Shown: positions 1-20,107 of the stretch, piece after piece
Numbering within the stretch: position 1 is the stretch's first letter
Layout of the letters: every line of letters starts with the position of its first letter
From: Nitrospira sp.
GTDB taxonomy: Bacteria > Nitrospirota > Nitrospiria > Nitrospirales > Nitrospiraceae
Length of the DNA: 64,000 nucleotides
NCBI GenBank assembly: GCA_035968315.1
Contig: JAVYIN010000005.1
Location: forward strand, 124,001-188,000
Reading direction: 5' to 3'
Made by a program: the position numbers and the translations under genes
Notes under the pieces: generated by a model
What the model saw: the letters and a program-made list of their open reading frames with translations, nothing else
Told to the model about the DNA's origin: nothing
Databases searched by the model: none

Positions 1-1074
1 CTGGCCGCTGAACAGCAGGTTGGAGAGTTTGCCGGCATGCCGCATCAGCGTCAGGGCATTGAACCCGACGAATGCCGTGAGATCGATCGTGGGATAAAAT
101 TGTGTCTTGGCGACCTTGACCAACCGTGCGGCGGCATCGGCCCGGTAGAGGGCCGCGGCCAAGTCGGGCCGATGGACCAACAGTCCCAAGGAGAGATGGT
201 CGGGCGCCGCGATCTGCTCCGGAATGACGACGGCCGGTTTCGCGAACAGGTGCAGGGCTTGATCTGGGCCTTGCCCGGCCAGCCGCGCGAGGATATGGCG
301 CTGGATGTCCAATTGATCCCGGAGGCCGGTGTGCCGTTTGATGGCGGCTTCATAGTCGGCTGCGGCGGTTTTTACGGGCTGCTCGTTGTCCAGCCCAAGG
401 CGGAAGCGGGTCTCCGCCAGCGTGCGCAAGTCGCGGCGGATGCCGACAAGAGTCTTGACCACGGTGAGTTGTTGCTGAAGCGCGTGCCCTTTGAAATAGG
501 CTCGCGCGATGGCGGTGGTCAGCCTGAGGCGCACTTCGGCCTGTTCGGCTTCTTCGGCGGCAGCCTGTCCCAGGGCCGCTTCAAGCGTGGCCCGGTTTTT
601 CCCCCAGAAGTCGAACTCGTAGCGGACACTCAACGGATTAAGGATGCCCAGGAGAATCTTGTCTCCCGCGACTTTTGGATTCAATGCCGCGAAGACCCCA
701 TGTTGGGAAATCCGTTCATAGGTGAGGGAGGCGTCCGCTTCCAGAAAGGGCAGGAGCCGCGCGCCTTCCACCTTCACCAGCGCCTCAGCTTCTCGCAGCC
801 GCGCCGCCGCGAGTTTGATGCCGGGGTTGTTCTTGAGCGCCAGGTCGATCAGCTCATTCAATTCCGGATTGCCGAATTGCGTCCACCAGCGATCGTCCGG
901 CCACTGCTGGAGCCGGCTTGTCACCTCGGCCAGCGTCTCGTTCATTTCCGGCGGCTCAAGAAACTCCGCAGGGGGATTGCCGGTGGGAATCCAGGCGCAG
1001 CTGCCGAAGAGCAGCGCGCAACCGATTCCGGCAGCGATCCGCAGGCGATAGGTGAAGCCGGAGCGGGATGTCAT
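1..1074 (-). CDS. Outer-membrane efflux lipoprotein (TolC/NodT family), 3' end cut by window edge
   Basis: The reading frame runs from ATG at 1074 to the window edge without a stop (358 codons seen). It begins with a signal peptide ending in a lipobox (LLFGSC, Cys26). The text then follows the OEP fold of RND/MFS outer-membrane factors, with a WWTQFGNPELNELID-type motif, NNPGIKLAAARLREAE, and an LVHRPDLAAALYRADAA motif near the cut end. It would form the outer-membrane duct of a tripartite pump. Its ATG overlaps the stop of the upstream MFS gene (ATGA), so the two are probably translationally coupled. A periplasmic adaptor is not seen between them and could lie beyond the left edge. Confidence 0.9.
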   Translation of the reverse strand, partial: MTSRSGFTYRLRIAAGIGCALLFGSCAWIPTGNPPAEFLEPPEMNETLAEVTSRLQQWPDDRWWTQFGNPELNELIDLALKNNPGIKLAAARLREAEALVKVEGARLLPFLEADASLTYERISQHGVFAALNPKVAGDKILLGILNPLSVRYEFDFWGKNRATLEAALGQAAAEEAEQAEVRLRLTTAIARAYFKGHALQQQLTVVKTLVGIRRDLRTLAETRFRLGLDNEQPVKTAAADYEAAIKRHTGLRDQLDIQRHILARLAGQGPDQALHLFAKPAVVIPEQIAAPDHLSLGLLVHRPDLAAALYRADAAARLVKVAKTQFYPTIDLTAFVGFNALTLMRHAGKLSNLLFSGQ

Positions 1075-2669
1075 GGCACTTCCTCGATCAATACTTCCGC
1101 ACGGAGTTCCTGCAACTCTTCCGCCGGGGTCGGCGAAAGCGGGACGTGGGTTGGGTGCGCGAACCAGACGAGCACGCCGATTACCAGAAACAGGCCGCTG
1201 GCCACCAGGAAGGCATCGTTCAGGCTCAGGATGGCCGCTTCCTGCCGGATCAGCGCACCAAGCTTGGCCTGGATCTGCGAGGGGGCGAGTCCGGCCGCCG
1301 CCAGTTTGGCTGTCAGGTGCCCCACGGGATCGTAGGAGATCGCCAGCCGCCCTCCGAAGTGATCGGCTAAATTGAGTTGATGAAAGTGGGTGCGCCGAAA
1401 GAGCACGATGCCTTGGAACGTGATGCCGAAGGCACCGGCCGCGACACGCAACAGGTTGGCGACCTCGGCGGCACGCATGACCAGCGGACCGGAGAGGCCA
1501 TGCAGCGTCAGGACCGTCAACGGTGTAAAGAACGATCCCAGGAAGATGCCCTCCACGACCATGGGCCAGAAGAGCTGGTCGTACGAGTGGGGATCATCGA
1601 ATAAGCCAATCCAATAGAATGTCCCGGCAAATCCGAGGCTGTTGAGGAAGATCAGCCAGCGCGCGTCAATGTACTTGCAGAGGAGGTGCATGACGGCAAT
1701 GGCGGGAGCGCCCAGGAGGACCAGCGGGAGCAGCGCAAGGCCGGCTAGTTTCGACGAGTATCCGAGAATCAGCTGGATCTGCACGACCAGGAGCGAGAGC
1801 AGTCCTTGAATGGAAAAGAATCCGAGCGTCAAGCAGACGATGCCGATCACGACATTGCGGTGCCGGAACAGCCGGAGATCCAGCGTGGGGTGCCGCTCAC
1901 CGAGTTCCCAGATCACAAAGCAGGGCAGCGCGATGAGCAGCACGACCGCCAGCGCTTTCAGAACGGGAGCGTCCAGCCAGTCAAAGTCGTTGCCCATGTT
2001 CAGGAACGTTTGACCCCCCAGTAACAGCACCAGCAGGAGCAGAAACCCCACGAAGTCGAAGCGCCCGTATCTTCGACGAAACCCGCGCCCGTAGAGCAGC
2101 GCCCCGAGCGTGCCGACGATGATCATGGTCAGGGCAAAATCCAGATAGAACAGAAAACGCCAGCCGAGCAGATACGCAATGTAGCCGCCGACCGGCATGC
2201 CGATGGTGAAGGGCGTCAAGCTGAACAATCCCCACACACTCAACGCCACCGTTTTCAACCGTTTCGGGTATTCGTTCAGCAGCATCGATTGGGCGATCGG
2301 CAGCGTGATGCCGCCGGCGATGCCCTGGGCAATGCGAGCCGGCAGGAATTGCGCGAGGGTTTCGCTGGCGCCGCAGAGGTACGAGGCGATGCTGTAGACG
2401 ATGAACGCGCCGATCAGCAGCCGGTAGTCGCCGATGCGGCCGGAGAGGTAGCGCGCCAGGGGAAAGCCGAGCGCCAGCCCGATCATGAAATCAGTTTGGG
2501 CCCAGGTGAGAAAGCTGGGCAGCACGCCCCCGAGATCGCCGGAAACGTGCGGCAGGAGGGCGATATACGACCCGGCATTGAACAGGACGACAATGTGTGC
2601 CAGGCCGAGGACGGCATTGAAGAGCACGAACCGCCAGCCGCGCAACCGTCGGAGATACACTGGTGCCAT
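1071..2669 (-). CDS. DHA2/EmrB-type MFS drug exporter, 14 TM
   Basis: This 532-residue very hydrophobic protein has the layout of DHA2-family (EmrB/QacA) proton antiporters: about 14 membrane segments, a motif-A-like loop (GFPLARYLSGRIGDYR, about 66-83) and a motif-C-like stretch (TPFTIGMPVGGYIAYLLGWR, about 150-170). It starts 17 bp after the FNT gene with a GAGG element upstream, and overlaps the outer-membrane factor gene by 4 bp. It is therefore the middle gene of an apparent FNT-MFS-OMF operon. EmrB proteins normally work with an EmrA adaptor, which is not in view. The substrate cannot be told from sequence. Confidence 0.88.
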   Translation of the reverse strand: MAPVYLRRLRGWRFVLFNAVLGLAHIVVLFNAGSYIALLPHVSGDLGGVLPSFLTWAQTDFMIGLALGFPLARYLSGRIGDYRLLIGAFIVYSIASYLCGASETLAQFLPARIAQGIAGGITLPIAQSMLLNEYPKRLKTVALSVWGLFSLTPFTIGMPVGGYIAYLLGWRFLFYLDFALTMIIVGTLGALLYGRGFRRRYGRFDFVGFLLLLVLLLGGQTFLNMGNDFDWLDAPVLKALAVVLLIALPCFVIWELGERHPTLDLRLFRHRNVVIGIVCLTLGFFSIQGLLSLLVVQIQLILGYSSKLAGLALLPLVLLGAPAIAVMHLLCKYIDARWLIFLNSLGFAGTFYWIGLFDDPHSYDQLFWPMVVEGIFLGSFFTPLTVLTLHGLSGPLVMRAAEVANLLRVAAGAFGITFQGIVLFRRTHFHQLNLADHFGGRLAISYDPVGHLTAKLAAAGLAPSQIQAKLGALIRQEAAILSLNDAFLVASGLFLVIGVLVWFAHPTHVPLSPTPAEELQELRAEVLIEEVP

Positions 2670-2686
2670 CGTCGCATCACCTCACG

Positions 2687-3556
2687 TCAGAAAATCGGAG
2701 AATAGCCTTGCTCTGTGGGGGCGGGGTGCGGTTGCACCGCCGGAACGGGCTGTCTCGCTACCGGCGAGGCAGCCCGATGCGTCAGATAGATGGCCAGCCC
2801 GGTGAACAGCATGCCTCCGACCAGGTTGCCTAACGTCACCGGGATTTGGTTCCAGAGCCACCATGAGGGGGCAGTGACATTGGCGCCGAGCAGCATGCCT
2901 ACTGGAATGACGAACATGTTGACGACGGCATGCTCAAATCCCTGGGAGAAGAAGAGGACTGTCGGTCCCCAGATGGCGATCAGCTTTCCGGTGAAGGAGG
3001 TGGAGGCGAAGGAGGCGACGACGGCGAGACTGACCATCCAATTGCATAGGACGGCTTTGGTGAAGACCGTGGCCAGACCGGACGAGCCATGGGCGGCATA
3101 GTAGTTGGTTTTTGCTTCTGCGATTGCGATCAACTTTGCGCCAACCGGTGAAATCGCAGAGTCCCATGCGGTGGTGATGCAGAGGGCAAAGAGCAGGGCA
3201 TAGAGTGTCGATCCCAGCAGATTGCCGAGAAAGACCCATGCCCAATTGGCAAGGATGCGACGCATGCCGACCTGGCCGTTGCTTTCAACGGCGGCGCAGG
3301 GAAGCAGTGCGAAACTGCCGGTGATGATTTCCGTGCCCAGCAGAACGGCCAGCGCCAGCCCGAAGGGAAACAGCAGGCTGCCCGCGATCCATGAGCCGGT
3401 TTCGACTGCGACCGTGACCGCCATGCTGGTCGCGATGCCCAGATAGGCCCCGGCCAGCATGCCTCGAATGACGAGGTGCAGAGGGGGAACGTTCAGTTTG
3501 ACATTGGCGCCAGCCAGCATGCTTTCGACAACGCCGAGAGGTTTGACGTAATCCAT
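2687..3556 (-). CDS. FNT-family nitrite/formate channel
   Basis: The FNT family makes pentameric inner-membrane channels for formate, nitrite and related small anions. The 289-residue product carries the family signatures in order: GTEIITGSFALLP (74-86), LCNWMVSLAV (170-179), GFEHAVVNMF (206-215) with the pore histidine at 209, and NQIPVTLGNLVGG near 235. The ATG at 3556 is chosen because AAGGAGGG lies 5 bp upstream and the protein then begins at the usual point; the open frame continues 20 codons further up without a ribosome site. It heads an operon with the MFS and OMF genes. A near-perfect sigma-54 promoter lies about 70 bp upstream. Nitrite is the likely substrate in a nitrifier-like genome, but this is inference. 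Confidence 0.9.
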   Translation of the reverse strand: MDYVKPLGVVESMLAGANVKLNVPPLHLVIRGMLAGAYLGIATSMAVTVAVETGSWIAGSLLFPFGLALAVLLGTEIITGSFALLPCAAVESNGQVGMRRILANWAWVFLGNLLGSTLYALLFALCITTAWDSAISPVGAKLIAIAEAKTNYYAAHGSSGLATVFTKAVLCNWMVSLAVVASFASTSFTGKLIAIWGPTVLFFSQGFEHAVVNMFVIPVGMLLGANVTAPSWWLWNQIPVTLGNLVGGMLFTGLAIYLTHRAASPVARQPVPAVQPHPAPTEQGYSPIF

Positions 3557-3624
3557 CCGAGCCCTCCTTCGATTCGTGGCTGACTGTGCGCTGATTGATT
3601 TGATTTGAACCGCCATCCGGCTTA

Positions 3625-3640
3625 AGCAATGTCAGTGCCA
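3625..3640 (-). promoter_or_regulatory. Sigma-54 (-24/-12) promoter of the FNT operon
   Basis: Read on the minus strand, the sequence is TGGCACTGACATTGCT. It matches the sigma-54 consensus at both elements (TGGCAC, five bases, TTGCT) with the invariant GG-N10-GC spacing. Transcription would start near 3613, giving a leader of about 57 nt before the FNT start codon. A candidate activator-binding palindrome is centred about 82 bp upstream of the -24 GG. Confidence 0.78.
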
Positions 3641-3710
3641 TTCGCGACGTGTGAGAAAACGCCTGAAGAATGCTGAGTCGAACGATATTCACTGTGAGGT
3701 CGAGCGGATT

Positions 3711-3730
3711 CGCACGATGCGCGCAGTGCG
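3711..3730. promoter_or_regulatory. Group A upstream activator palindrome (FNT operon)
   Basis: CGCACGATGCGCGCAGTGCG is an inverted repeat CGCAC-N10-GTGCG lying about 82 bp upstream of the FNT sigma-54 promoter, a normal distance for an enhancer bound by an NtrC-type activator. A near-identical element occurs at 5099-5118, between two other sigma-54 promoters. The recurrence and the shared inner bases (GCGCA before GTGCG) argue for one DNA-binding protein. Which regulator binds is inference; the intact NtrC-type protein at 13315-14703 is a candidate. Confidence 0.55.
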
Positions 3731-4062
3731 GTTCATTGGGGCCAAGTGGGAGGAGGCCTAATGCTGTGTGAGGGCAACGGCTACGTAAGTTTTGGCAATA
3801 AAGTTATGCGGGAATTTAGGCGGACCGTATTGCTCGTGTCGTTCCGTTCTCTTTTTTCCTGCTCGTCTTGAGTGGGATGCCTCGCTAGCGCGTCTAGGCG
3901 TGCTCCCTGGACGAGGTGCGGTGGGGGCGATTCTCGATGGCGCCAAGAGGCCGGCCGGATATATTCGGCGTAGTGCCGCATAGAAGCAGATTCCCGGAGC
4001 CATGGTGGCGGCAATGGGCTGTGGTTGCTGAACGGCTGCCCGATCAGGTTGGATCGCTCTCG
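3731..4062. other. Intergenic region with no gene recognised
   Basis: This stretch lies between the 3' end of modA and the FNT upstream region. Short open frames occur on both strands, but none has a ribosome site, a recognisable protein or plausible codon use. No clear rho-independent terminator for modA was found. The FNT regulatory elements lie just outside it. Confidence 0.5.
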
Positions 4063-4851
4063 TTACTGGATAGGGTCAAATCCGTAATTGAGCAAGAGTT
4101 TCTGGATGCGGGGGCTCATCAGAAAATCGGAAAACGCCGTGGCAACGTCGCGGGCGCTCTCCCGGCCTGTCGAGATCACGGCCTGACCGAAATGCACCGG
4201 CATATAAGATCCAGTAGGGGCCTCGTCACTGATGCGCACCTGTCCGCCGTTGATGGCGTCGACGCGATAGACGAGTCCCACGTCAGCTTTGCCGGTGTGA
4301 ATCAGCTGAAGAATGTCTTCGCTATGGGATGCATGGAGAATGTGGGAGCGACTCTTATCCAAATAGGTGGGATTGAGTTTGGAGAGCGCCCGGGCCGTGA
4401 CATCGCCCAATGAGGACGTCCGGGGATCTCCGAGGGCAATGCGGGTCGTGCGATTAGGCAGCGCGTCGTGAAAGGACACCAATGTGGCCAGGGAGTCCGT
4501 CGACATTACAAGGACGAGCGAGGTCTGCGCATAGATGCGGGGGGCGCCGTTGAGTGTCAGGCCCTTCTTGTGAAGGGACTCGACTTCATCCATCCCGGCA
4601 GCCAGGAATACATCGATTGGAATCCCCTGTTCGATCTGCCGGCTCAGGGTTTTCGAGGGGCGATACACCACGCTCACCGATGCCCCATATTCTCGTTCGA
4701 ACATGGGCAGGATTTCGGTAAGGGCCGGCCGTAGGCTCGGAGGCGCCCCGACCGTCAGGGGTTCAGTCTGAGCGTGTCCTACTGGTGCACCGGCAATAAC
4801 GAGTCCGCCCATGATTGCCGCCAGCACGCTCGCCTTCCGAAATCCCATCAT
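4063..4851 (-). CDS. modA: ModA-like molybdate-binding periplasmic protein (orphan)
   Basis: The product (262 residues) has a signal peptide ending near AHAQTE (about 1-28). The mature protein follows the ModA/PBP fold: a VGAPPSLRPALTEILPMFE opening, a SKTLSRQIEQGIPIDVFLAA segment, and RIALGDPRTSSLGDVTARAL further on. ModA captures molybdate or tungstate in the periplasm for an ABC importer. Two ATGs in tandem (4851, 4848) follow GGGAG; 4851 was taken. No modB or modC permease gene is nearby. A sigma-54 promoter upstream suggests regulation with the FNT and RND operons. A related oxyanion cannot be excluded as ligand. Confidence 0.82.
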   Translation of the reverse strand: MMGFRKASVLAAIMGGLVIAGAPVGHAQTEPLTVGAPPSLRPALTEILPMFEREYGASVSVVYRPSKTLSRQIEQGIPIDVFLAAGMDEVESLHKKGLTLNGAPRIYAQTSLVLVMSTDSLATLVSFHDALPNRTTRIALGDPRTSSLGDVTARALSKLNPTYLDKSRSHILHASHSEDILQLIHTGKADVGLVYRVDAINGGQVRISDEAPTGSYMPVHFGQAVISTGRESARDVATAFSDFLMSPRIQKLLLNYGFDPIQ

Positions 4852-4957
4852 CGTTCTCCCTTTTCTACCCCTGCCAATAACGGGTTGCACGTGAACTCCC
4901 TTGGATTAGGTCTGAATTCATCACGATCGATGTCGTGTTCCTTCCGTGAAGGTTCAT

Positions 4958-4973
4958 CGCAAGATCAGTGCCA
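4958..4973 (-). promoter_or_regulatory. Sigma-54 (-24/-12) promoter of modA
   Basis: On the minus strand the sequence reads TGGCACTGATCTTGCG: a full TGGCAC -24 element, five bases, and TTGC at -12, with correct GG-N10-GC spacing. Only the last base departs from TTGCW. Transcription would begin near 4946, giving a leader of roughly 95 nt to the modA ATG. Confidence 0.75.
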
Positions 4974-5098
4974 ATGGTGATTCTCGGTGCTTGCATTTTT
5001 GAGGGCGAGCTGAAGCGCCAAATTCGTGGGAAATTCGGTCCGAGCAATTTCGAGCGCGCAGTCCGCACGTCCGAGCGCATGTGCAAAGGGAGCGATTC

Positions 5099-5118
5099 CG
5101 CACGGTACGCGCAGTGCG
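5099..5118. promoter_or_regulatory. Group A upstream activator palindrome shared by modA and RND promoters
   Basis: CGCACGGTACGCGCAGTGCG repeats the element at 3711-3730 with two base differences. It lies about 137 bp from the modA -24 element and 113 bp from the RND operon -24 element, between the two diverging promoters. This suits a bidirectional enhancer bound by a sigma-54 activator. Binding is not shown. Confidence 0.55.
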
Positions 5119-5219
5119 AAAGCGGGGACTCGCCAGTTCGGGGATCGAAGCGATGCTCCCATGGCCGCGTTCCAGCATGTGTATCATGGAAGCGATTGGA
5201 TGAAGACGGGCTAGTTCAA

Positions 5220-5235
5220 GGGCACAGACATTGCT
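5220..5235 (+). promoter_or_regulatory. Sigma-54 (-24/-12) promoter of the RND efflux operon
   Basis: GGGCACAGACATTGCT matches the sigma-54 consensus except for the first base (G for T), with GG-N10-GC spacing intact. The expected start of transcription, about 5246, lies only about 7 bases before the RND gene ATG, so the mRNA would be almost leaderless. The gene also lacks a visible Shine-Dalgarno sequence, in keeping with that. Confidence 0.65.
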
Positions 5236-5252
5236 CTACATAGTGTCTGCCC

Positions 5253-8200
5253 ATGATGCAGCTTATCCACATCGCCCTGAAGAAGCCCTACACGTTTGTC
5301 GTTCTTGCGATCTTGATCGTCTTGTTCGGCGTCCAGACGACGCTCCACATGCCGACCGATGTGTTTCCGAACATCTTGATTCCCGTCACCTCCGTGGTTT
5401 GGGCCTACGACGGTCTGCTGCCGCAGGATGTCGAAGGGCGCATCACCTATATCTTCGAACGCTTCCTCACGTCGACCGTCGAGGGCATCAAGAGCATCGT
5501 CAGTCACTCCTATTACGGTAGCAGTATCATCAACGTCTATCTTCAGGACGGTATCGACCGCGGCGGGACCGAAGCCGATATCGCGGCGATCTCGCAGACG
5601 GTGGTCAAAGCGCTGCCGCCGGATATTTCCCCGCCCATGGTCATGCGTCTCGCGCCATCTTCGGTGCCGGTGGCTATGCTGCAAGTCACCTCCGATACGC
5701 TCACGATGGCGGAGCTCTACAATCTCTGCATCATGCGGATCCGGCCCCTGTTGGTCACCATCGACGGGGCCATTCTGCCGCATCCCTACGGCGGGCAGGA
5801 TATGCAGATCATGGTGTCGCTCGATCAGCAGAAATTGCTCGCCCGCCACCTGACCCCGTCTGATGTCCATCTGGCTCTCGGGAGCCAGAATCTGGTGCTG
5901 CCCGGAGGCGATATCAAGATCAAATCGACCGACTGGATCGTTTTGACGAACGCGTCCCCCCTGAAGGTCGATGATTTCAACGACATCCCGATCAAGCGAG
6001 AGGGAAATGCCTTCATCCACCTGCGGGACGTCGCTGATGTGCGGCTCGCCGGCCGGGTGCAAACAAATGCCGTGCTGGTGGATGGCCAGCAGTCCGTCAT
6101 CATCATCGTGATGAAGAGCAGCGAGGCCTCTACCCTGGATGTGGTCGATGGAATCAAGGAAATGATTCCGCGTATCGAGAAGGTTGTGCCGGATGGCGTG
6201 AAGATCAAGCTGCTGAACGATGCCTCGATTTTCGTCCGGGATTCGATTGTGGATGTGGTCTCCGAAATGGTGATCGCGGCCGTCCTGGTCGGCCTCATCG
6301 TCCTCCTCCTGCTTGGCTCCTGGCAGGCGACGGTCATTGTGGCGACCACAATTCCGCTCTCCATCCTGACGTCCATCATCTGCCTGCACTGGGCCGGCCA
6401 GTCCATCAATGTCATGACGTTGGGCGGATTGGCGCTGGCCGTGGGCGTGCTGGTCGATGATGCGACGGTGATGATTGAGAATATCGACACCCATCTCGCC
6501 ATGAACAAGCCGCTGGAGGATGCCATCATGGATGCCTCCAAGCAGATTCTTCTCCCGACGTTTGTGGCCACATTGGCGATCGCGATCGTGTGGCTGCCGC
6601 TCTTCAAGCTGAGCGGGGTCTCCGGGTGGCTGTTCATGCCCATGGCCGAGGCGATCATCTTCGCGATGCTGGCGTCCTTCATTCTTTCCCGGACGCTGGT
6701 GCCAACCATGGCGAATTACATGCTGGCCGGGCATCAGGGGCCGCATGCCCAGATGGAGGGGGCGCTGCCGGGAGAAAGGCCGCCGCTGAGCGTCTTTGCC
6801 AGATTTCAGCAGGGGTTCGAGCACGGCTTCGATCGCTTCCGCGATCGGTACAATGTGCTGCTTGAGCGGGCCGTCGCCCATCGGGGCCGTGTCGTCAGCA
6901 TCGCGCTGGTCCTCGCCGTCAGCTCGCTCAGTCTGTTGTATTTCAATGGCCGGGATTTCTTCCCCGAGATCAAGTCCGGGACGTTGCAGATGCATATGCG
7001 GGCGCCCCTCGGCATGCGGATCGAGGCGACGGGCCGCATTGCCTCGCTGGTCTCGAAAGACATTGAGCGGTTGCTCCCCGGCCAGGTCGAAGGCATCGTG
7101 AGCAATTGCGGGCTGCCGGTCGGCGCGCATAACCTGGCCTTCATTCCAACGCCGACGATCGGTCCGCAGGATTGCGATATGACCATCTCCCTCAAGAATG
7201 AAAAGTCGCCGGTATGGGAGTATCGGCGGATTCTCCGCCAGGGCTTGCGCGAGCGATATCCCGGCACCGACTTCACGTTTCAGCCGGCGGACCTGACCGC
7301 GAAGATTCTCAACTTCGGCTCGCCCTCGCCCATTGACGTGCAGATCAACGGCCCCGAGCGGTACGCCAACTACGAGTTCGCCCGCAATCTAGCCGGCCGC
7401 TTGCGCCAGATCCCCGGGACCACCGACGTCGTGATCCAGCAGACCATGCGCACGCCGACCCTGCTCGCCGAAACCAACCGCATGTTCGGACTGGGCATGA
7501 ATCTGACCCAGAAGGACGTTGCCGGCAACCTGCTCTTGACGACGGCTGGCAGCCAGCAGGTCGACCAACAATACTGGCTTGATCGGAAGACCGGCATGTC
7601 CTACCGGATCAACGTGTACACCCCTCAGCAGCAGCTCACCAGCATCAAAGATCTGTTGACGGTGCCCGTCGATCGAGATGATCGGGACGCATCGGACAAG
7701 GGCCTGAAATTGCTCGGCAATGTGACCACGTTGTCGGCGGTCGGCACGCCTGGCGTGATTACGCACAAAGATATCATGCCGTTAATTGACATCTATGTGT
7801 CCGCAGACGGGCGTGATCTGGGCGGCGTGCTGGCGGATGTCGAAACGGTCGCCCACAGCATGAAAGGCGAGCTGCCCCGGAGTGCGGCGGTCGAAATCCA
7901 TGGTCAGGCCGAATTGATGCGCGGGGCCTACACCGAACTCGTCATTGGCCTGGTCGTGGCCATCGTGCTGGTCTATCTCTTGATCGTCGTCAACTTCCAA
8001 TCGTGGCTCGATCCCTTCATCATCATTTCGGCCTTGCCCGGCGCCTTGGCAGGCATCGCCTGGAGTTTGTTTCTGACACATACGAATCTCTCCACACCGG
8101 CGCTGACCGGCGCGATTATGACCATGGGCACGGCCACGGCCAATTCGATTCTCGTCGTATCCTATGCCCGTGAACGGCTTGCCGAGCACGGCGATGCGCT

Positions 8201-8432
8201 GCGGGCGGCGATCGAAGCCGGGAAGGCCCGCATCCGTCCCGTACTCATGACCGCAGCCGCCATGATCATCGGCATGTTGCCGATGTCGATGGGGAGCTCC
8301 CAGAATGCGCCGCTCGGTCGCGCCGTCATGGGCGGCTTGGTTGTGGCCACCGTGTTCACGCTGGTGTTCGTACCCTGCGTGTACGCCATCATGTATAACC
8401 GGCGCGCCGTCCGCCAACAGGAGCGTACCTGA
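5253..8432 (+). CDS. RND efflux transporter, inner-membrane permease
   Basis: At 1059 residues the protein has the full length of an RND pump. It opens with a first membrane helix (KKPYTFVVLAILIVLFG) and the MPTDVFPNI motif. A large periplasmic domain follows, then the GVLVDDATVMIENI segment in TM4 with the paired aspartates of proton relay, and a C-terminal block RPVLMTAAAMIIGMLPMS. It lacks the DFG-type TM4 motif of heavy-metal RND pumps, so it is nearer the drug/lipophile group. It heads an RND-adaptor-outer-membrane-factor operon. Tandem ATGs at 5253 and 5256 are both possible starts; no Shine-Dalgarno is seen. Confidence 0.92.
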   Translation: MMQLIHIALKKPYTFVVLAILIVLFGVQTTLHMPTDVFPNILIPVTSVVWAYDGLLPQDVEGRITYIFERFLTSTVEGIKSIVSHSYYGSSIINVYLQDGIDRGGTEADIAAISQTVVKALPPDISPPMVMRLAPSSVPVAMLQVTSDTLTMAELYNLCIMRIRPLLVTIDGAILPHPYGGQDMQIMVSLDQQKLLARHLTPSDVHLALGSQNLVLPGGDIKIKSTDWIVLTNASPLKVDDFNDIPIKREGNAFIHLRDVADVRLAGRVQTNAVLVDGQQSVIIIVMKSSEASTLDVVDGIKEMIPRIEKVVPDGVKIKLLNDASIFVRDSIVDVVSEMVIAAVLVGLIVLLLLGSWQATVIVATTIPLSILTSIICLHWAGQSINVMTLGGLALAVGVLVDDATVMIENIDTHLAMNKPLEDAIMDASKQILLPTFVATLAIAIVWLPLFKLSGVSGWLFMPMAEAIIFAMLASFILSRTLVPTMANYMLAGHQGPHAQMEGALPGERPPLSVFARFQQGFEHGFDRFRDRYNVLLERAVAHRGRVVSIALVLAVSSLSLLYFNGRDFFPEIKSGTLQMHMRAPLGMRIEATGRIASLVSKDIERLLPGQVEGIVSNCGLPVGAHNLAFIPTPTIGPQDCDMTISLKNEKSPVWEYRRILRQGLRERYPGTDFTFQPADLTAKILNFGSPSPIDVQINGPERYANYEFARNLAGRLRQIPGTTDVVIQQTMRTPTLLAETNRMFGLGMNLTQKDVAGNLLLTTAGSQQVDQQYWLDRKTGMSYRINVYTPQQQLTSIKDLLTVPVDRDDRDASDKGLKLLGNVTTLSAVGTPGVITHKDIMPLIDIYVSADGRDLGGVLADVETVAHSMKGELPRSAAVEIHGQAELMRGAYTELVIGLVVAIVLVYLLIVVNFQSWLDPFIIISALPGALAGIAWSLFLTHTNLSTPALTGAIMTMGTATANSILVVSYARERLAEHGDALRAAIEAGKARIRPVLMTAAAMIIGMLPMSMGSSQNAPLGRAVMGGLVVATVFTLVFVPCVYAIMYNRRAVRQQERT

Positions 8433-8433
8433 G

Positions 8434-9642
8434 ATGAATAGCCTGCGCGGGAAAGGCCTTGCGGTCGCAGCCATACTTCTGTGTGTGTGCTATGTCGGAT
8501 ATCGGCTGTACGAAGGCCGGCTCGAAGCTGCGGCGCTGCGTGACGCCACCCTCGAACGCGCCGTTCCGACCGTGGCCGTAATCCATGCAACGCCGTTGCC
8601 GCCGAACGAGACGATTACGCTTCCCGGCAATATCCAGGCCTGGTACGAAGCGCCGATTTATGCGCAGGTCTCGGGCTATGTGAAGATGTGGTACAAGGAC
8701 TACGGGGCGCAGGCCAAGAAAGGCGATGTGCTCGCCGAAATCAACGCGCCGACGCTCGACGCCCAATATGCGCAAGCCAAGGCGGATTTGGAATCGGAGC
8801 GTGCCAAGAATGCGCTAGCCGAACTGACGGCACGACGCTACGTGGCGATGCGCACGAATCACGCACTTTCCGAGCAGGCGATCTCGGTGCAAGTCGCCGA
8901 GGCGAAAGCCGAAGCGGCCAAGGTCAAGGCGGCGGAACAAAACGTCAAGAACTTCGAGGCGATGATTCAGTTCAAGACCATCGTCGCGCCCTACGATGGC
9001 GTGGTCACTGTCCGCAATATCAATGTCGGCGACTACGTCAATAAAGAAGGTACGATCAGTTCCTCCGGCGGCTCCAGCACGATCAGTAACCTCTTTACCG
9101 TGGCCGACGTCAGTATGATGCGCCTCTTTGTCAGTGTGCCGGAGGCGTTCGGGCCCTTTCTCCAGCCAGGTCTGACGGCTGACGTGACGGTGCCGCAATT
9201 GCCCAATCGGCATTTCACCGCCAAGTTCCTGACCGTCGCCCGTGGATTCGATGTGAGCACGCGCACCGCCATCACAGAATTCACGATCGAGAACGAGGAC
9301 CGGGCGCTGTGGCCGGGTTCCTACGCGACCGTCCGTCTCACGGCGCCGGTCGAAAAAAGTGTATTCACGATTCCGTCCACCGCCATGGTCTTTCAAGAGC
9401 ATGGCGCGCAAGTGGCCGTGGTGACGGAAGGCGGCCGCGTGCATTTTCAGCCGATTACCGTCGGTCGGATTCTCGACAGCGCCATCGAGGTGGCGGACGG
9501 AATCTCCGCCAGCGAGCACATTATCAATAACCCCAGCGCCGCGCTGTTGGAAGGCGACACCGTGCGCATCGTCACGCCGGCGCCCGGGTACGATCTCGTG
9601 ACGCCGGATGCGCCGGCCTCAAAGGAAGAAACTTCAAAATGA
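8434..9642 (+). CDS. RND periplasmic adaptor (membrane fusion protein)
   Basis: The 402-residue product starts one base after the pump's stop codon (TGA-G-ATG). An N-terminal membrane anchor is followed by the lipoyl half-motif PIYAQVSGYVKMWYKDYGAQ, an alpha-hairpin rich in Ala, Glu and Lys (about 110-180), the second lipoyl half (IVAPYDGVVTVRNINVGDYV), and beta-barrel and membrane-proximal domains. It links the pump to the outer-membrane duct. The open frame extends into the pump gene, but those extra residues are the pump's sequence in another frame. Confidence 0.9.
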   Translation: MNSLRGKGLAVAAILLCVCYVGYRLYEGRLEAAALRDATLERAVPTVAVIHATPLPPNETITLPGNIQAWYEAPIYAQVSGYVKMWYKDYGAQAKKGDVLAEINAPTLDAQYAQAKADLESERAKNALAELTARRYVAMRTNHALSEQAISVQVAEAKAEAAKVKAAEQNVKNFEAMIQFKTIVAPYDGVVTVRNINVGDYVNKEGTISSSGGSSTISNLFTVADVSMMRLFVSVPEAFGPFLQPGLTADVTVPQLPNRHFTAKFLTVARGFDVSTRTAITEFTIENEDRALWPGSYATVRLTAPVEKSVFTIPSTAMVFQEHGAQVAVVTEGGRVHFQPITVGRILDSAIEVADGISASEHIINNPSAALLEGDTVRIVTPAPGYDLVTPDAPASKEETSK

Positions 9643-9655
9643 CGGTTCTCCTCAC

Positions 9656-11275
9656 ATGATGGGCACCCCCGCACGAACAGGATCGCAGGTGTCCGGCCTC
9701 CTGCTCGCCGGTGTGCGGCGCAGTGGGATGGTCCTGCTGGCGCTCAGTATGTCAGCCTGCAGCGACTGGTTGCCGCATGTCGATCTGGCGCCGGCCTATC
9801 AGCCCCCTCAATACGTGGTTCCGGCCTCATGGCACGGAGCCAGTCCCTTTGTGGAGGCGAAGCCGTCGGATGACGCCCTGCGTTCGGATTGGTGGACGCT
9901 GTACGATGATCCGCTCCTGAACAGACTTGAAGAGCAGGCGATGGCAGCCAATCCGGATCTCCAGGCCGCCGCGGAACGGTTCATCCAAGCTCGCGATGAC
10001 ATGATGAAGGCCCGGTCGCGCCGAATGCCGCAGATAGGACTGGGGTTTGGGGCCTCGAATAACAGGCAATCAGATAATACCCTGTTTCGCCCGCCTGACA
10101 GTCCGCTCCGGGAAAGCTCCGTGTCCATTGGCGGGCTGGCCTCCTGGGAACCTGATTTCTGGTCGGCGATCCGCAATGCGACGCGCGTGGAAACGTATCG
10201 CGCCGAGGAACGCGCCGCCGACTATGGGCTTGCGCGCCTCAGCCTGCAGGCGGAAATCGCGGCGAATTATTTCACTCTGCGCGGCTACGACGCCGAGGTC
10301 GCGACCTATAAGCAATCGATCGACCTCTATAAACGGTCACTCGCCATCGTGAAGACTCAGTTCGCCGGTGCGATCGCGTCGGCCCTCGATGTCGCCCGCG
10401 TCGAATCGCTTCTCTATAGCACGGAAACGAAATTGGCTCAGGTTCAAGGGCAACGCCAGGTGACGGAACAGTCGATTGCCATTCTCGTCAACATGGCGCC
10501 GGCCGGGTTCACGATCAAACCGGTCGATCAGCTGCGAGTGGCGACGGTCACGATCCCACAGACGATCCCGTCGACTTTGCTCGAGCGTCGGCCTGACGTG
10601 GCCAGAATGGAGCGCCAGATGGCGCAAGCGAACCGCGCCATCGGCATCGCCCGCGCCGCGTTTTATCCGAATGTGACGTTCCGGGCCGGAGGCGGCTTTG
10701 AGGATGCCGGCTTCAATCTCATCCAGCTGGCCAACAGTTTATGGTCCTATGGCGCGACGGTCGCGGTGCCGATGTTTCAGGGAGGGTATCGACGCGCCCA
10801 ATTGCAGCAGGCCTGGTCGGCCTACCGCGAAACGGAAGATCGATACCGTTCGACGGTGCTCAACGCCTTCCGCGAAGTCGAAAACAATTTGAGCCTGACG
10901 ACTCAGCTGAGCACGGCGGTCGACCGGCAGGAGGCTGCCGTCGGAGCGACGAAAAAGGCCCAAAACCTGACCACGGAGCTGTATCAGGGCGGGCTGGCCT
11001 CCAGCCTTGAACTGATTTACGCGCAGGTGGCCACGCTCACGGCGCGCATCGAATCGGTCCAGATCAAGGCCGAATTGCTGCGATCCTCGGTCGCGCTGAT
11101 TCGTGCGCTCGGCGGAGGCTGGGACCGTACGCAATTGCCGACGGACGAGGAGATCCAGCCGTTCGGTACATTCCAATATACCAATCTCGATAAACCGCCG
11201 CCTGTCGGGGGGATAGATGTTAATGTGCGTCACAACGGGATTGATAATGATCTGACGCAGCGGTCGGCGCCTTGA
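9656..11275 (+). CDS. Outer-membrane efflux lipoprotein (NodT/OprM type)
   Basis: The 539-residue product has a signal peptide with lipobox LSMSAC (Cys35 from ATG 9656). The two OEP repeats follow: WWTLYDDPLLNRLEEQAMAANPDLQAA early, IPSTLLERRPDVARMERQMA in the middle and LYQGGLASSLELIYAQ near the end. It is the third gene of the tripartite pump operon. ATG 9656 was chosen because the lipobox then sits at a normal distance; ATG 9659 is equally possible and neither has a strong ribosome site. A tail of about 50 residues after the last repeat is unlike the family and has no known role. Confidence 0.9.
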   Translation: MMGTPARTGSQVSGLLLAGVRRSGMVLLALSMSACSDWLPHVDLAPAYQPPQYVVPASWHGASPFVEAKPSDDALRSDWWTLYDDPLLNRLEEQAMAANPDLQAAAERFIQARDDMMKARSRRMPQIGLGFGASNNRQSDNTLFRPPDSPLRESSVSIGGLASWEPDFWSAIRNATRVETYRAEERAADYGLARLSLQAEIAANYFTLRGYDAEVATYKQSIDLYKRSLAIVKTQFAGAIASALDVARVESLLYSTETKLAQVQGQRQVTEQSIAILVNMAPAGFTIKPVDQLRVATVTIPQTIPSTLLERRPDVARMERQMAQANRAIGIARAAFYPNVTFRAGGGFEDAGFNLIQLANSLWSYGATVAVPMFQGGYRRAQLQQAWSAYRETEDRYRSTVLNAFREVENNLSLTTQLSTAVDRQEAAVGATKKAQNLTTELYQGGLASSLELIYAQVATLTARIESVQIKAELLRSSVALIRALGGGWDRTQLPTDEEIQPFGTFQYTNLDKPPPVGGIDVNVRHNGIDNDLTQRSAP

Positions 11276-11332: not shown

Positions 11333-11362
11333 TTGACACGGGGCGGGTCGCAATCCTACGAT
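11333..11362 (+). promoter_or_regulatory. Candidate sigma-70 promoter of the first kinase/regulator pair
   Basis: TTGACA (11333-11338) and TACGAT (11357-11362) are separated by 18 bp, and a GAGGGAGAG ribosome site plus ATG follow at 11383. The regulator pair thus seems to be made by housekeeping polymerase, unlike the sigma-54 genes around it. Confidence 0.45.
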
Positions 11363-11382: not shown

Positions 11383-13311
11383 ATGCGAGAGCGCGCCGCC
11401 CGCCTGTTCAACAACCTTCCGATTCATCGCAAGCTGCTGCTCGCGTCGTTCATTCCGTTGGTCGCCCTCATCGTCTTGAGCGTCATGACCTACCAGAGCG
11501 TGGAGACGTTTTCGCAAGACGAAGAGCAGCTGGACAGTCTCTATGTGACGCAAAAGAATGCGGCCGAGTATATGCGGCTGGCCGTCGATCTGGAAACCGG
11601 CTTCCGGGGATATGTGCTGACCGAACAGCATCGGTATCTGCGGCCGTATCGCGTCGCGCAGGAAGGGATCGCTGCCATCGGCCACGATCTGGCCGAGCGC
11701 CTTTCCGGTGAGCAGTTGGATCGCTTCAAAGCGATTCAAACGCTGGTGGTCCAGTTGGTGACGGAGAAAGAAGCGTTGATTCGCGCCATCAAGGAGGGGC
11801 ACAAACAGGAGGCATTCCACTACATCGAAGAGGGGCGCGGACGGGAATTGATGGTGGAGATTCGGCGGCAGATGGGAATCTTTGACCGGTACGGGCAGCA
11901 GAGTGTCGCTGAAAAATTGGCGCAGTTGAGCCAGGATCGCACGTCCACCATGTTCGTGGTGCTGGGCGGCGGCGTGTTTACCTTCGGGCTGATGGTCAGC
12001 GCGCTCTATCTGATTGCCCGTTCGATCGCGACGCCGCTGCGCGACCTGGCGACGACGGTCGGATCCTCGCCCGCGGGATTGGTGCCGGCCATCGCTGTGC
12101 TGGCGCGCACCGACGAAATCGGGGATCTCACGAGGGTCATGCACGACATGAGCGCCCAGATTCGCGGGCATTTCAATGAGATGGAGAAGTCCGAGGCCGC
12201 TCTTCGCCGGCTGAACGAGCACCTGGCGGCCTCCGAGGCAAAGTATCGAGGGCTTGTCGATCACGCTCCGTTCGGGATTTTTACCACGACGGGAATGCAG
12301 ATTACGTTTAGCAATCGCTATAACCAAGAGCTTGCGGGGCTTGATCCCGATGATCCGGTGGACCCCGATGCGTTCAGGGAGTGCATTCACCCCGAGGACC
12401 GCGACCGAGTCCTGTCAGAATTTCGGCAAGCGGTGGCGCAGGGACAGCCGTGCGAAACCGTCTTCCGATTTTTGCACAAGAACGGCGGCGTGCGCAAAGT
12501 GTTGAGCCGCCGCCTGCCCATCGTCGGCGGCGACGGCCTCCAGCCGGTGTATGTGGGGTTCAACGTCGATATTACGGCCTTGGAAGACCTGCAGGCCCGG
12601 TTGAGCCGGGCCGAGCATTTGGCGACGTTGGGGCAGGTGGCGGCGGGCATTGCCCATGAGCTCAGGAATCCCCTCGTCGGGATCGGGTCCACCGCCTCGC
12701 TGTTGCTGGATGAGTTTGCGGGCGATGATCCGCGGCGGACGGACATTGACGTGATTTTGAAAGAGGCGAAACGATTGGATCGCATCGTGAACCAAATCGT
12801 GGAATATGCGCGGCCGCGCGAGCTGGCGCCGGTGCAGTTCAGCCTCTCGGATGTGATCGACGAAGTGGTCAAAACGCTCGATGTGCCGCTGCAGGCGAAA
12901 CAGCTCGGCATCCGGGCGTCGTTGTCCCCGACAGCCGCCCAGGTGCATGCCGATCGGGATCAGATCAAGCAGGTGCTGCTGAATGTCATTCACAATGCGA
13001 TCGATGCCTCTCCGGTGAATGGCGCGGCCATCGAGGTGATCGCCTTCGAACTGTCCAGCCAGGATCGGCCGGGCATCGTGGTGCTCGTCAAAGACGCCGG
13101 CGTCGGGATTGCGCCCGACGCGCTGTCCCGCGTCTTTGAGCCGTTTTTTACCACAGGCAAGCGGCATGGCACGGGGTTGGGGCTCGCCATCTGCCGGAAC
13201 ATCATCGCGAGTCATGGGGGCGATATCCACATGACGAGCGAGGCGGGAAAAGGGACGACCGTGCGGATCTGGCTCCCGCTGAGCCAGGAGCCGCACACGG
13301 TGAAAGGCTGA
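11383..13311 (+). CDS. Membrane sensor histidine kinase (CHASE3-HAMP-PAS-HisKA-HATPase)
   Basis: From ATG 11383 (GAGGGAGAG upstream) the kinase is 642 residues. TM1 lies at about 17-38, a CHASE3-like periplasmic sensor with LETGFRGYVLTEQ follows, then TM2 near 190-212, HAMP, and PAS (about 285-395). The HisKA domain has the phospho-acceptor His425 in AGIAHELRNP, and the ATPase domain ends with [18 protein letters not shown]. The signal sensed by CHASE3 domains is generally unknown. The gene lies 3 bp upstream of an NtrC-type regulator and is surely its partner. Upstream of ATG 11383 the frame is open but lacks a ribosome site. Confidence 0.9.
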   Translation: MRERAARLFNNLPIHRKLLLASFIPLVALIVLSVMTYQSVETFSQDEEQLDSLYVTQKNAAEYMRLAVDLETGFRGYVLTEQHRYLRPYRVAQEGIAAIGHDLAERLSGEQLDRFKAIQTLVVQLVTEKEALIRAIKEGHKQEAFHYIEEGRGRELMVEIRRQMGIFDRYGQQSVAEKLAQLSQDRTSTMFVVLGGGVFTFGLMVSALYLIARSIATPLRDLATTVGSSPAGLVPAIAVLARTDEIGDLTRVMHDMSAQIRGHFNEMEKSEAALRRLNEHLAASEAKYRGLVDHAPFGIFTTTGMQITFSNRYNQELAGLDPDDPVDPDAFRECIHPEDRDRVLSEFRQAVAQGQPCETVFRFLHKNGGVRKVLSRRLPIVGGDGLQPVYVGFNVDITALEDLQARLSRAEHLATLGQVAAGIAHELRNPLVGIGSTASLLLDEFAGDDPRRTDIDVILKEAKRLDRIVNQIVEYARPRELAPVQFSLSDVIDEVVKTLDVPLQAKQLGIRASLSPTAAQVHADRDQIKQVLLNVIHNAIDASPVNGAAIEVIAFELSSQDRPGIVVLVKDAGVGIAPDALSRVFEPFFTTGKRHGTGLGLAICRNIIASHGGDIHMTSEAGKGTTVRIWLPLSQEPHTVKG

Positions 13312-13314
13312 CCG

Positions 13315-14703
13315 ATGCGCGCAGTCATTTTTGTGACCGACGATGAACAGGCGATTCGCACCGCGATCGTGAAGCGGCTGACCCGGCAAGGGCATCGCGC
13401 CGTGGGGTACGAGTCCGGCGAAGCGTTGCTGGAGGCGCTCCGGCACGATGTGCCCGATCTCGTGCTGCTCGATTTGAAGATGCCGGGCCTCAACGGGCTC
13501 GATACCCTAAAGAGCCTGCGGCAGCTGGCTCCGTCCGCCATGGTGATCATGTTGACGGCGTACGGAACCGTGCAGGACGCCGTGGAGGCGATGAAGCTGG
13601 GGGCGTATGATTTTCTGATCAAGTCGGTCGATCTGGAGGGCATCGATCCGGTGGTCGCCCGGGTGCTGGATGTCGTGACGCTCCGGCGGCGTCTGGAGTC
13701 GGAGCTGGGCCGGCAGGAGAGCCAGTATCAGTTGAGCAATCTGGAAGCCCAGAGTTATGCGATGAAGCACTTGCTCGAACAGGTGCGTGAAGTGGCGGAT
13801 AATCCCAAATCGTCGGTGATGCTGCTCGGCGAAACGGGAACCGGGAAAGAGTTTTTTGCGCGCGTCATTCATCACAACGGGCCACGGGCGTCCGGGCCGT
13901 TCATCGGCGTCAATTGCACCGCGATTCCCAAGGAGCTCTTTGAGAGCGAGCTGTTCGGGTTTGAACGAGGCGCCTTTACGGGCGCTAACCAGCGGAAGCT
14001 GGGGCTGCTGGAAAAGGCGGAAGGCGGCACGCTGTTCCTGGACGAGATCGGGGACCTCGATCAGTCCATGCAGGCCAAGCTGTTGCGCGTGATTCAAGAA
14101 CGGTCGTTTCGGCGCCTTGGCGGGACCGACGACCTCGGGGTGGATTTCCGGCTCATTACGGCGACCAATCGGGATTTGAAGAAAGAGGTGGCGCGCGGGG
14201 CCTTTCGCGAGGATCTCTATTTCAGGCTCAATGTCGTGGCGTTTGAACTCCCGCCGTTGCGGCGGCGCGCGGAAGATATTCTGCCCCTCTGCCGGCGTGC
14301 GATTGTCCGCTTCGCGCAGGAGTTCGGCAAGCCGGTGCCGGATCTGGATCCCGAGGCCTGCCGGATGCTCGAACGTTATGCCTATCCGGGCAATATCCGC
14401 GAACTGCAGAACATTCTCGAACGCGCCATGATCTTCTGCCAAGGGCGGACGCTGACGCCCAATTGCCTGCCCGCTGAACTGCGGGAGAGCGCGGCGAAGG
14501 TCGCCGTGGCCGCGGGCACGGGAACCGATCCGGTCGTGCGAGTCGAGATGAGGCTGGGACAACAGACGCTCATCGATGTCGAGCGGGCGCTGATCGACGA
14601 AGTGCTGCGCTTGTCGGACTATAACAAAACCCTGGCTGCCAAGCACCTCGGCCTGACGCGATTTGCGTTGGATCGACGGCTCAAAAAGGCCGACGACGAG
14701 TAG
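13315..14703 (+). CDS. Sigma-54-dependent response regulator (NtrC type), intact
   Basis: The 462-residue protein has a receiver domain with phospho-acceptor Asp53 (VLLDLKMPG), an AAA+ domain with Walker A GETGTGKE, the sigma-54-contact loop GAFTGA, Walker [10 protein letters not shown], and a C-terminal Fis-type helix-turn-helix ([20 protein letters not shown]). All parts of a working enhancer-binding activator are present. It lies directly after its kinase. Its targets are not known; the CGCAC-N10-GTGCG sites before the FNT, modA and RND operons are candidates because the RND operon ends just upstream. Confidence 0.93.
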
Positions 14704-14794: not shown

Positions 14795-16825
14795 ATGAGA
14801 ATCCGGACCATTCGCGGACGCATTGTGTTGGCCATCGTGCTGGTGGGTTGTATCCCGCTGGTGATTGGGCTTGTCCTGGCCTATGTGTCGGGCATGCGGT
14901 CGCTGCGTGATGTCATCGGCGGCAATCTGCAAGCCGTGGCGGTGCAGGCGGCGGATCGCGTGACCCTGCTGGTGCAGAGCGAGGTGCAGAGCGTCAGGCT
15001 GCTGGGCTCCGCCCCGTTGCGTGTCCGCCAGCCGGTGGAGGGAGCCAACCAATCCTACCCTCAGGAGCCGGCATCCGTGCAAGCCGTCATTGCCGAGCGG
15101 ATGCAGGTGTGGGAACAGGGAGGGGACGGCGCCAGGAGGCTGATGAACGCCGAATTATCCCGGTTCCTCTTGGGCACCAAAGTGCGCGACGGCGACAAAG
15201 TTGTCGGCTTGCTGATCGCCGACAAGCACGGGGCGCTGGTGGCCGCGAGTTCCGATCCCGATCATTATGTGTTTGCGAACGAGCCCTGGTGGGCGGCGAT
15301 TCACGCGGGAGGGGTCGATCAGGTCTATGTCAGCGGGCTGATTCCGGCGCACGAAGGATCGTTCAGGACGCCGGAAGAAACCATCGATATTGCCGTGCCG
15401 ATTCTGGACGAGCGGCAGCATACGGTGATCGGGGCGGTGAAGGCGTCGTATCGATTCGATACGCTCTTCGCGATGATCAATCAAATCCGGATCGGGCAGA
15501 CCGGCCATGCGATGCTGTTCGACGCGGCGGGCCATCCGCTGGTCTGCCCGATTCTGCCCCGGCAGGCGCACCGCATTCCCGGCCAGCTCATGTCCATGAT
15601 CGTCTCGATGCAGCCGGGTTGGGGCATTGCGGAAGATGACGGGCATGGCGGGACGGATACGGTGGTCGGCTTTGCGCCGGTCACCGGCCTTCCGTTGCCC
15701 GACAGCTCCTGGCATATCTTCGTGCGTCAGCAACCAGGCGAGAGTTACGCGCCCATTCGGGACCAGTTGCGGAATTTGGCGGTCATTGGCTTGGTGATGC
15801 TCGGATTGTTGTGGGCGATGGGCCGCTACGTGGCGTCACGCATTGCGCAGCCGATTCAGATTTTGCAGGCCGGCGTGGAGGCGATCAGCCAGGGCACGTT
15901 CGACCGGCCGTTGAATATTCAAACAGGGGATGAGTTCGAGGAACTGGCCGCCGCCGTCCATCGCATGGCCGACCGGCTTAAGGCCTCGCGGGTGGAGCTG
16001 GAAACGTTGAATGCCGATCTGGCGCGGCGCGTCGAGGAGAAAACGGCCGAAGTCACGGAGCACATGAAGCAGCTTCAGTTCGCCGAACGGCTGGCGACGC
16101 TGGGCAAGGTGGCCAGCGGGATCGCGCATGAAATCAATAACCCCCTGGGGATCATTCTGAACCGGATCGAGTGCATGGAGATCGAGGCCGCGCACTTGGG
16201 CGTGTCGGAGGAGCAGCAGCGGGACCTGCTGGCGATCCGCACTCAGGCCGACCGCATTTCACGGATTACGAAGAGCATGCTGGCCTTGTCCCGTGGCGCC
16301 GCGACCGTGCTGAAGCCGATCGATGTGAATTGCGTCCTGAAGGCCTGTATCGAGGCGTCGCAGGAACGGGCATCTGCCAAAGGCGTGCGGATCGACGTGG
16401 CGCTGTCACCGGAACTGCCGCCGATCATGGGCGACCGTGACCGGATCGAAACGGTGATGATGAATCTGATCAACAATGCGCTCGACGCGGCGAAGGAGGG
16501 GGTGCCTCCGGCGCTGGTGACGGTGCAGTCCGAACGCTGTCCGGGGAAAGAGGGCGAGCGAGTGCTGGTGCGCATCAGCGATACGGGCCCTGGCATTCCG
16601 GAAGAGATGTTGGGGCGCATCTTCGATCCCTTCTTTACCACCAAGGAAGAAGGCCAGGGCACCGGCTTGGGGCTCTTTCTTAGTTATGGCATCGTCGCCG
16701 ATCACCGTGGACATCTTGAAATCGAAAACGGCCGGCGCGGGGCCGTGGCGTCCGTGTATCTGCCCGCGCTTGCGCCAGTCAGTGACACGCATCAGGAGGC
16801 CGGATGGGAACAGGGAAGATACTGA
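14795..16825 (+). CDS. Membrane sensor histidine kinase (dCache-HAMP-HisKA-HATPase)
   Basis: The kinase has 676 residues. TM1 is at about 9-30, then a large periplasmic domain of roughly 290 residues resembling double Cache (ANEPWWAAIHAGG, TGHAMLFDAAGHPLV), TM2 near 327-350, HAMP, a coiled linker, HisKA with His445 (ASGIAHEINNPLG) and an ATPase domain ending GQGTGLGLFLSYGIV. dCache domains usually bind small molecules such as amino or carboxylic acids. Its 3' end overlaps the next regulator gene by 22 bp, so they are co-translated partners. Confidence 0.9.
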   Translation: MRIRTIRGRIVLAIVLVGCIPLVIGLVLAYVSGMRSLRDVIGGNLQAVAVQAADRVTLLVQSEVQSVRLLGSAPLRVRQPVEGANQSYPQEPASVQAVIAERMQVWEQGGDGARRLMNAELSRFLLGTKVRDGDKVVGLLIADKHGALVAASSDPDHYVFANEPWWAAIHAGGVDQVYVSGLIPAHEGSFRTPEETIDIAVPILDERQHTVIGAVKASYRFDTLFAMINQIRIGQTGHAMLFDAAGHPLVCPILPRQAHRIPGQLMSMIVSMQPGWGIAEDDGHGGTDTVVGFAPVTGLPLPDSSWHIFVRQQPGESYAPIRDQLRNLAVIGLVMLGLLWAMGRYVASRIAQPIQILQAGVEAISQGTFDRPLNIQTGDEFEELAAAVHRMADRLKASRVELETLNADLARRVEEKTAEVTEHMKQLQFAERLATLGKVASGIAHEINNPLGIILNRIECMEIEAAHLGVSEEQQRDLLAIRTQADRISRITKSMLALSRGAATVLKPIDVNCVLKACIEASQERASAKGVRIDVALSPELPPIMGDRDRIETVMMNLINNALDAAKEGVPPALVTVQSERCPGKEGERVLVRISDTGPGIPEEMLGRIFDPFFTTKEEGQGTGLGLFLSYGIVADHRGHLEIENGRRGAVASVYLPALAPVSDTHQEAGWEQGRY

Positions 16826-18336: not shown

Positions 18337-18352
18337 CGGCACTGTATTTGCT
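18337..18352 (+). promoter_or_regulatory. Sigma-54 (-24/-12) promoter of the degenerate regulator
   Basis: CGGCACTGTATTTGCT agrees with the sigma-54 consensus at every position that matters except the first base (C for T), with GG-N10-GC spacing exact. Transcription would start near 18363, about 70 nt before the ATG at 18432. Confidence 0.7.
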
Positions 18353-19903: not shown

Positions 19904-20107
19904 CTGCTGCACGGGCACTGGTGGTGGCGCAGGTTGTTCGGACCGGCCTCTGAATAGCCCGCATCTTGATGGATGCCCATCACCAGCATTACTCCATGCG
20001 GGACGGTGCGAGAGGAGGTCTGCCGGCCCGCCAGCGTTCGGTGTGTGTCCAGGATCGGTTAACACGCCGTGCCGAAGCACCACGGCGATGGAAAGGGAGG
20101 CCCTTGT

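Follow-up and report, generated by a model that had tools for sequence, protein, structure and literature searches.

Sigma-54 regulons governed by two-component activators are well known, and the regulon proposed here is a new one of that familiar type. In the NtrC/NR(I) regulons of Proteobacteria, a kinase is paired with an activator built of receiver, AAA+ and Fis-type domains, and dyads of GCAC/GTGC half-sites, usually 7 bp apart, lie upstream of the sigma-54 promoters. For Nitrospira, sigma-54-dependent regulators have been noted upstream of nxrA, and the excerpted text of that report ties them to nitrogen metabolism without describing an element or regulon (PMC7522533). The locus studied here, from the same genus, lies in a 64,000-nucleotide stretch (hereafter the window; C5:124001-188000 of the 3.11 Mb Nitrospira genome G000, for which genome-wide statements come from pattern searches), and we consider it likely from its sequence that a kinase-activator pair, HK1-EBP1, acts through a 29-bp element on four promoters to form a local, partly self-feeding sigma-54 regulon. 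No description of this combination of regulator, element and targets was found in the open-licence papers searched. Nitrospira is hard to manipulate genetically and its gene regulation is poorly known; here the sequence yields a regulator, a DNA element and a set of targets that lend themselves to in vitro tests, with nitrite, bicarbonate, molybdate and envelope stress as candidate signals.

EBP1 (13315..14703, plus strand), the proposed activator, is an NtrC-family response regulator with a receiver, an AAA+ domain carrying GAFTGA in the translation, and a Fis-type helix-turn-helix (PF00072, PF00158 and PF02954, all above cut-offs). It follows the sensor histidine kinase HK1 (11383..13311, plus; CHASE3-HAMP-PAS-HisKA-HATPase by domain matches), whose start is probably the ATG at 11383 of a reading frame listed from 11272. 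The pair thus shares its architecture with NtrC and its kinase, whereas EBP1 reaches only 394.4 bits against the equivalog cut-off of 558.6 (TIGR01818). AtoS-AtoC are the best NCBIfam family matches of HK1 and EBP1, yet both proteins score far under those equivalog cut-offs (423 versus 714 and 223 versus 646 bits), and no acetoacetate genes were recognised near HK1-EBP1. The DNA site also departs from that of NtrC, with half-sites 10 bp apart and two further pentamers within the element, and the targets here are transporters. None of the three perfect elements in this genome precedes nxr genes.

The first-pass annotation had described two 20-bp elements, one before the operon of an FNT-family channel and one between the diverging modA and RND promoters. 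Both were found, with CGCAC-N10-GTGCG exact at 3711-3730 and 5099-5118 and 18 of 20 bases alike, and both are kept in relatives at these positions. These palindromes proved to be the cores of a longer, asymmetric element of 29 bp, CGCAC-N-GNGC-N5-GTGCG-N4-CGCTC, which that annotation had missed together with a third copy. In its full form, the predicted upstream activator element of the FNT operon (3702..3730, minus; CGCACTGCGCGCATCGTGCGAATCCGCTC) and the modA/RND intergenic element (5090..5118, minus, pointing toward modA; CGCACTGCGCGTACCGTGCGGAATCGCTC) are perfect matches. The FNT element is conserved with a different spacer in four relatives (L005, L006, L007 and L029), where the arms are exact, the spacer varies and the extra CGCTC follows four bases downstream; in three others (G022, G025 and G033) the modA/RND element stands out, with both its promoters, from surroundings that have mostly drifted. 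The core alone, CGCAC-N10-GTGCG, occurs at eight places in the genome (two in the window), and perfect 29-bp copies occur at three in the whole 3.11 Mb, C5:121991, 127702 and 129090, all between C5:121991 and 129118 and so within 7.1 kb. Among imperfect copies only C7:351467 has two mismatches, the others having three; as a further target it was set aside when no sigma-54 site was found nearby. A matrix derived from 85 sites of the family, with the window's FNT site among the training set, has the consensus TTT-CGCAC-N-GTGCG-N4-GTGCG-AATT-CGCTC-rATTT and scores the two window copies at 39.5 bits (3702-3730) and 40.9 bits (5090-5118), whereas no other place in the window exceeds -4.7 bits.

The three sigma-54-like sites proposed earlier are present at their coordinates. 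They are the predicted promoters of the FNT operon (3625..3640, minus; -24/-12 sequence TGGCACTGACATTGCT, 0 mismatches), of modA (4958..4973, minus; TGGCACTGATCTTGCG, 1 mismatch) and of the RND operon (5220..5235, plus; GGGCACAGACATTGCT, 1 mismatch). With as many as two mismatches allowed, the consensus is no commoner in the window than chance (22 found versus 31.5 expected from shuffles), and the promoter calls consequently rest on context and conservation: GG-N10-GC with TGGCAC/TTGC, preservation between species, and rpoN present in the genome. Alignment shows the FNT promoter, TGGCACNGANNTTGCTTA, preserved in four relatives; 71 bases separate its GGCA from the core, as in most FNT orthologues. 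In G022 and G033 the RND promoter reads GGGCACAAACATTGCT, and the modA promoter of relatives is TTGGTAT/C..TTGC, in the same place with a weaker -24 box. The FNT and modA/RND promoter regions are footprint-conserved together with their elements. The predicted RND leader (5220-5260) would be only about 7 nt long before the start codon, nearly leaderless. This short leader and the weak modA -24 box in relatives count against the model.

We then considered element and promoter jointly. In 147 family genomes we searched for a 20-bp core with GGCA-N6-TTGC 50-80 bases beyond it, and the reversed pattern served as a control. The joint pattern was present in 54 of the 147 genomes and the reversed control in 0, counts that are not phylogenetically independent; in a phylum-wide sample of 245 genomes there was no match outside the family. 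Within the 50-80 bases allowed, the core-to-GGCA distances fall at 59-63 and 70-76, plus a single 80, giving two classes one helical turn apart, for which the p-value of a helical-phase test is descriptive only, as related species are not independent. By this spacing, the element holds a fixed helical phase before predicted sigma-54 promoters in related species. If the element were instead bound by a repressor or served DNA architecture, with sigma-54-like sequences nearby by coincidence, its GC-rich, partly palindromic nature and the chance frequency of -24/-12 matches at two mismatches would fit; this reading accounts poorly for the joint conservation of element and promoters, the two spacing classes and the empty reversed control, and we judge it highly improbable. 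In other genomes the element stands before genes for porin-like proteins, for a GDSL-type protein (by family search), for a CBS-like protein and for one of 154 aa that looks secreted.

The predicted products of the regulon in the window genome serve envelope transport and include a nitrite-type anion channel, a molybdate-type binding protein and two exporters. The channel gene (2687..3556, minus; 289 aa; PF01226, E 7e-59, 199.5 bits) probably begins at the ATG at 3556, and not at the longer reading-frame start at 3616, because GGAGGG lies just upstream of the former and the latter lies upstream of the predicted transcription start. The protein belongs to the same FNT fold family as NirC, and its relatives in other phyla (50-57% identical) adjoin NIR_SIR-type nitrite reductase genes, NirA- or NirB-like. 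It differs from NirC in scoring only 62.3 bits against the equivalog cut-off of 293 (NF008595) and in sharing its operon with an EmrAB-type exporter, so that the earlier reading of a nitrite-type channel holds by the gene context of relatives and not by family assignment. The second gene of the operon is probably that of an EmrB-type DHA2 MFS exporter (1071..2669, minus; MFS_1; TIGR00711 231 bits, just above cut-off), which follows FNT in relatives too. A probable outer-membrane efflux protein (1..1074, minus; reading frame by eye) runs off the window, and an EmrA/HlyD-type protein with HlyD domains comes next outside it (L115:14035-15564); the gene order is the same in three other loci (L019, L025 and L030). 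The first-pass annotation was right about a channel operon with an element and had overlooked the efflux pump within it.

The ModA-type periplasmic protein (4063..4849, minus) passes the TIGR01256 equivalog cut-off (124.8 versus 62.5 bits), which bears out its description as a molybdate-binding protein, and among solved structures its nearest relatives are ModA proteins that bind molybdate. Translation probably starts at the ATG at 4849 of a frame open from 4890. No modBC was seen beside modA in the list of window reading frames. On the other side of the intergenic element are an RND efflux permease (5253..8432, plus; ACR_tran E 2e-189), an HlyD/CusB-type membrane-fusion protein found by family search (8305..9642, plus), the true start of which is probably near 8436, and an outer-membrane efflux protein (9608..11275, plus; PF02321; TIGR01845 NodT 315 bits, above cut-off). 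An RND pump under the element had been proposed before and is retained, with the correction that the pumps are two, the other being the EmrAB-type pump of the FNT operon.

The third perfect element (C5:121991-122019) lies about 2 kb before the window and precedes an unannotated reading frame of 33 aa (MKEIISSIGDRELAWIMLAIAGLIVWSTWGLVS) with its own sigma-54 promoter (L115:13400-14120; G000:C5:121775-122019). Its product is a single-helix membrane protein with no family match in Pfam and with homologues in 36 of the 147 family genomes. An exact core is found 141-170 bases ahead of the chosen start codon in all 29 readable homologue loci, and synonymous codons vary widely at the conserved residues, so the microprotein is a real protein. 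The element search thus exposes a microprotein that is conserved at the codon level and outside the reach of Pfam.

Most of these family genomes hold 28 or more EBP1-like matches, and this abundance of other enhancer-binding proteins counts against the model. The first-pass annotation had named the gene at 13315-14703, and several observations make it the best candidate. Of the 54 genomes that bear the element, 51 have EBP1, and the 11 element-bearing genera are all among the 13 with EBP1; the three genomes in which it was not detected are 81, 94 and 66% complete, and its absence there may reflect missing sequence. Conversely, 26 EBP1 genomes are without the exact element-plus-promoter pattern, including a clade with HK1-EBP1 behind a SulP gene. 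The recognition helix, [LMIV][TS]RF[AS]LDRRLK[KR], is nearly invariant among orthologues 61-100% alike. HK1-EBP1 is divergent from FNT both in close relatives, where the element lies in between, and in the N. defluvii clade. Three genomes (G098, G069 and G090) have an element with a sigma-54 site immediately before HK1, and then a sigma-70-type promoter. The elements, the promoters, their conservation and phasing and the association with EBP1 are seen in the DNA itself, and we draw from them the strong inference that EBP1 reads the element. That a different activator, either EBP2 (16804-18213) or one encoded elsewhere, binds the elements with EBP1 merely nearby is in our estimation quite improbable: several of the many such proteins have Fis-type helices in common, and EBP2 does co-occur with the element above chance (32/54 versus 15/93), yet, when the two proteins are compared for co-occurrence, 22 of the 54 genomes with the element have no EBP2, a distribution that disfavours it as the regulator, and it is EBP1 that adjoins elements in several genera with its recognition helix nearly unchanged.

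The N. defluvii clade carries, in the intergenic region shared by HK1 and FNT, a conserved variant of the element, GAGCG-N4-CGCAC-N-GNGCG-N3-GTGCG-N4-CGC, present in 23 of the 147 genomes. By coordinate comparison, most of the variant sites lie just upstream of HK1, at a distance of some 2.1 kb from EBP1. A sequence TGCAC-N10-GTGCA near -350 of FNT in three loci was discarded as not conserved, the real variant element there having a 9-bp core spacing. A candidate sigma-54 promoter (GG-N10-GC) toward HK1 in this clade was likewise dropped in favour of a sigma-70-type TTGCAC-N18-TACGAT, and the TTGCAC variant is found in most loci of the clade. In the window, HK1 is preceded by a sigma-70-like promoter, TTGACA-N18-TACGAT (11333..11362, plus), which the first-pass annotation had missed; the motif TTGACA-N17/18-TA[CG]GAT recurs before HK1 in six other loci (L005, L006, L029, L198, L146 and L147).

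For the window genome, we propose that this sigma-70-type promoter would provide a basal supply of HK1-EBP1 (11383-14703), and that HK1, perceiving a signal through its CHASE3 and PAS domains, would phosphorylate EBP1. Bound to the 29-bp element, EBP1 would loop the DNA and, through its AAA+ GAFTGA domain, open sigma-54 polymerase at four promoters: those of FNT-EmrB-OMP-EmrA, of modA, of RND-HlyD-OEP and of the 33-aa membrane microprotein 2 kb outside the window. As the RND pump genes lie upstream of HK1-EBP1 here, read-through from RND-HlyD-OEP would yield more HK1-EBP1 and so amplify the response. Binding, activation, the signal and read-through are the parts of this model that we infer.

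As to the signal, a link between nitrogen-oxyanion metabolism and export, as suggested in the first-pass annotation, is plausible, and the gene context of relatives marks the FNT protein as a nitrite-type channel. The regulon could instead be real and answer a shortage of inorganic carbon, with FNT passing bicarbonate like the algal LCIA. Such a signal is also conceivable because the same regulator stands beside SulP, or SulP, P-II and DabA, in other Nitrospirales: its neighbours in family f3 include SulP, DabA and P-II, a CitMHS-type transporter and a NuoL-like (DabB-like) protein, and one clade of the window's own genus has HK1-EBP1 behind a SulP gene. Bicarbonate uptake by SulP and Na+/H+ antiporters has been proposed for N. 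marina (PMC8115632), and the best solved relative of the FNT protein is Chlamydomonas LCIA. However, LCIA is equally the top solved match of FNT proteins beside NIR_SIR-type nitrite reductase genes; the score of 112.7 bits is no closer than the 116.3 and 105.6 bits of two nitrite-linked proteins, and the LCIA match, which does not discriminate between the two readings, was dropped as evidence for a bicarbonate channel. The 50-57% identity to nitrite-linked relatives also speaks against a carbon signal, and efflux pumps and ModA fit no obvious carbon response, so that we hold a bicarbonate-responsive regulon to be unlikely. The broader version, in which HK1-EBP1 would be a low-inorganic-carbon switch of Nitrospirales, one sigma-54 activator with one pentamer-array element governing uptake of the SulP/DabA type in certain lineages and, in others, an FNT serving as a bicarbonate channel, with the small membrane protein tuning transport, seems to us distinctly unlikely.

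Some side observations concern these other lineages and the remainder of the window. In L128 (3413-6846), and also in L127 and L129-L134, genes for SulP, an EBP1-like protein without a helix-turn-helix, HK1 and EBP1 follow one another in a row; all eight loci inspected in this SulP-linked clade carry a rearranged GAGCG-N4-CGCAC...CGCTC element, and in L127-L134 a GGCAC-N6-GTGCT sequence also lies upstream of SulP. In L138 (4329-16410), HK1-EBP1 orthologues are next to CitMHS-type, SulP, P-II, DabA and NuoL-like genes, and an unrelated reading frame of 51 aa (MSEFSILYKSL...), found again in L139, has a sigma-54 site in front of it. Back in the window, EBP3 (18432-19631) is the third response regulator of NtrC-like type. 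It is without GAFTGA and, judged by its length, without a C-terminal helix-turn-helix, which rules it out as a normal sigma-54 activator. At 80 bp upstream of EBP3 lies a sigma-54-like site (18337-18352, plus), and a reading frame of 1596 aa (20069-24859) resembles, by eye, a multi-domain multicopper-oxidase-type protein.
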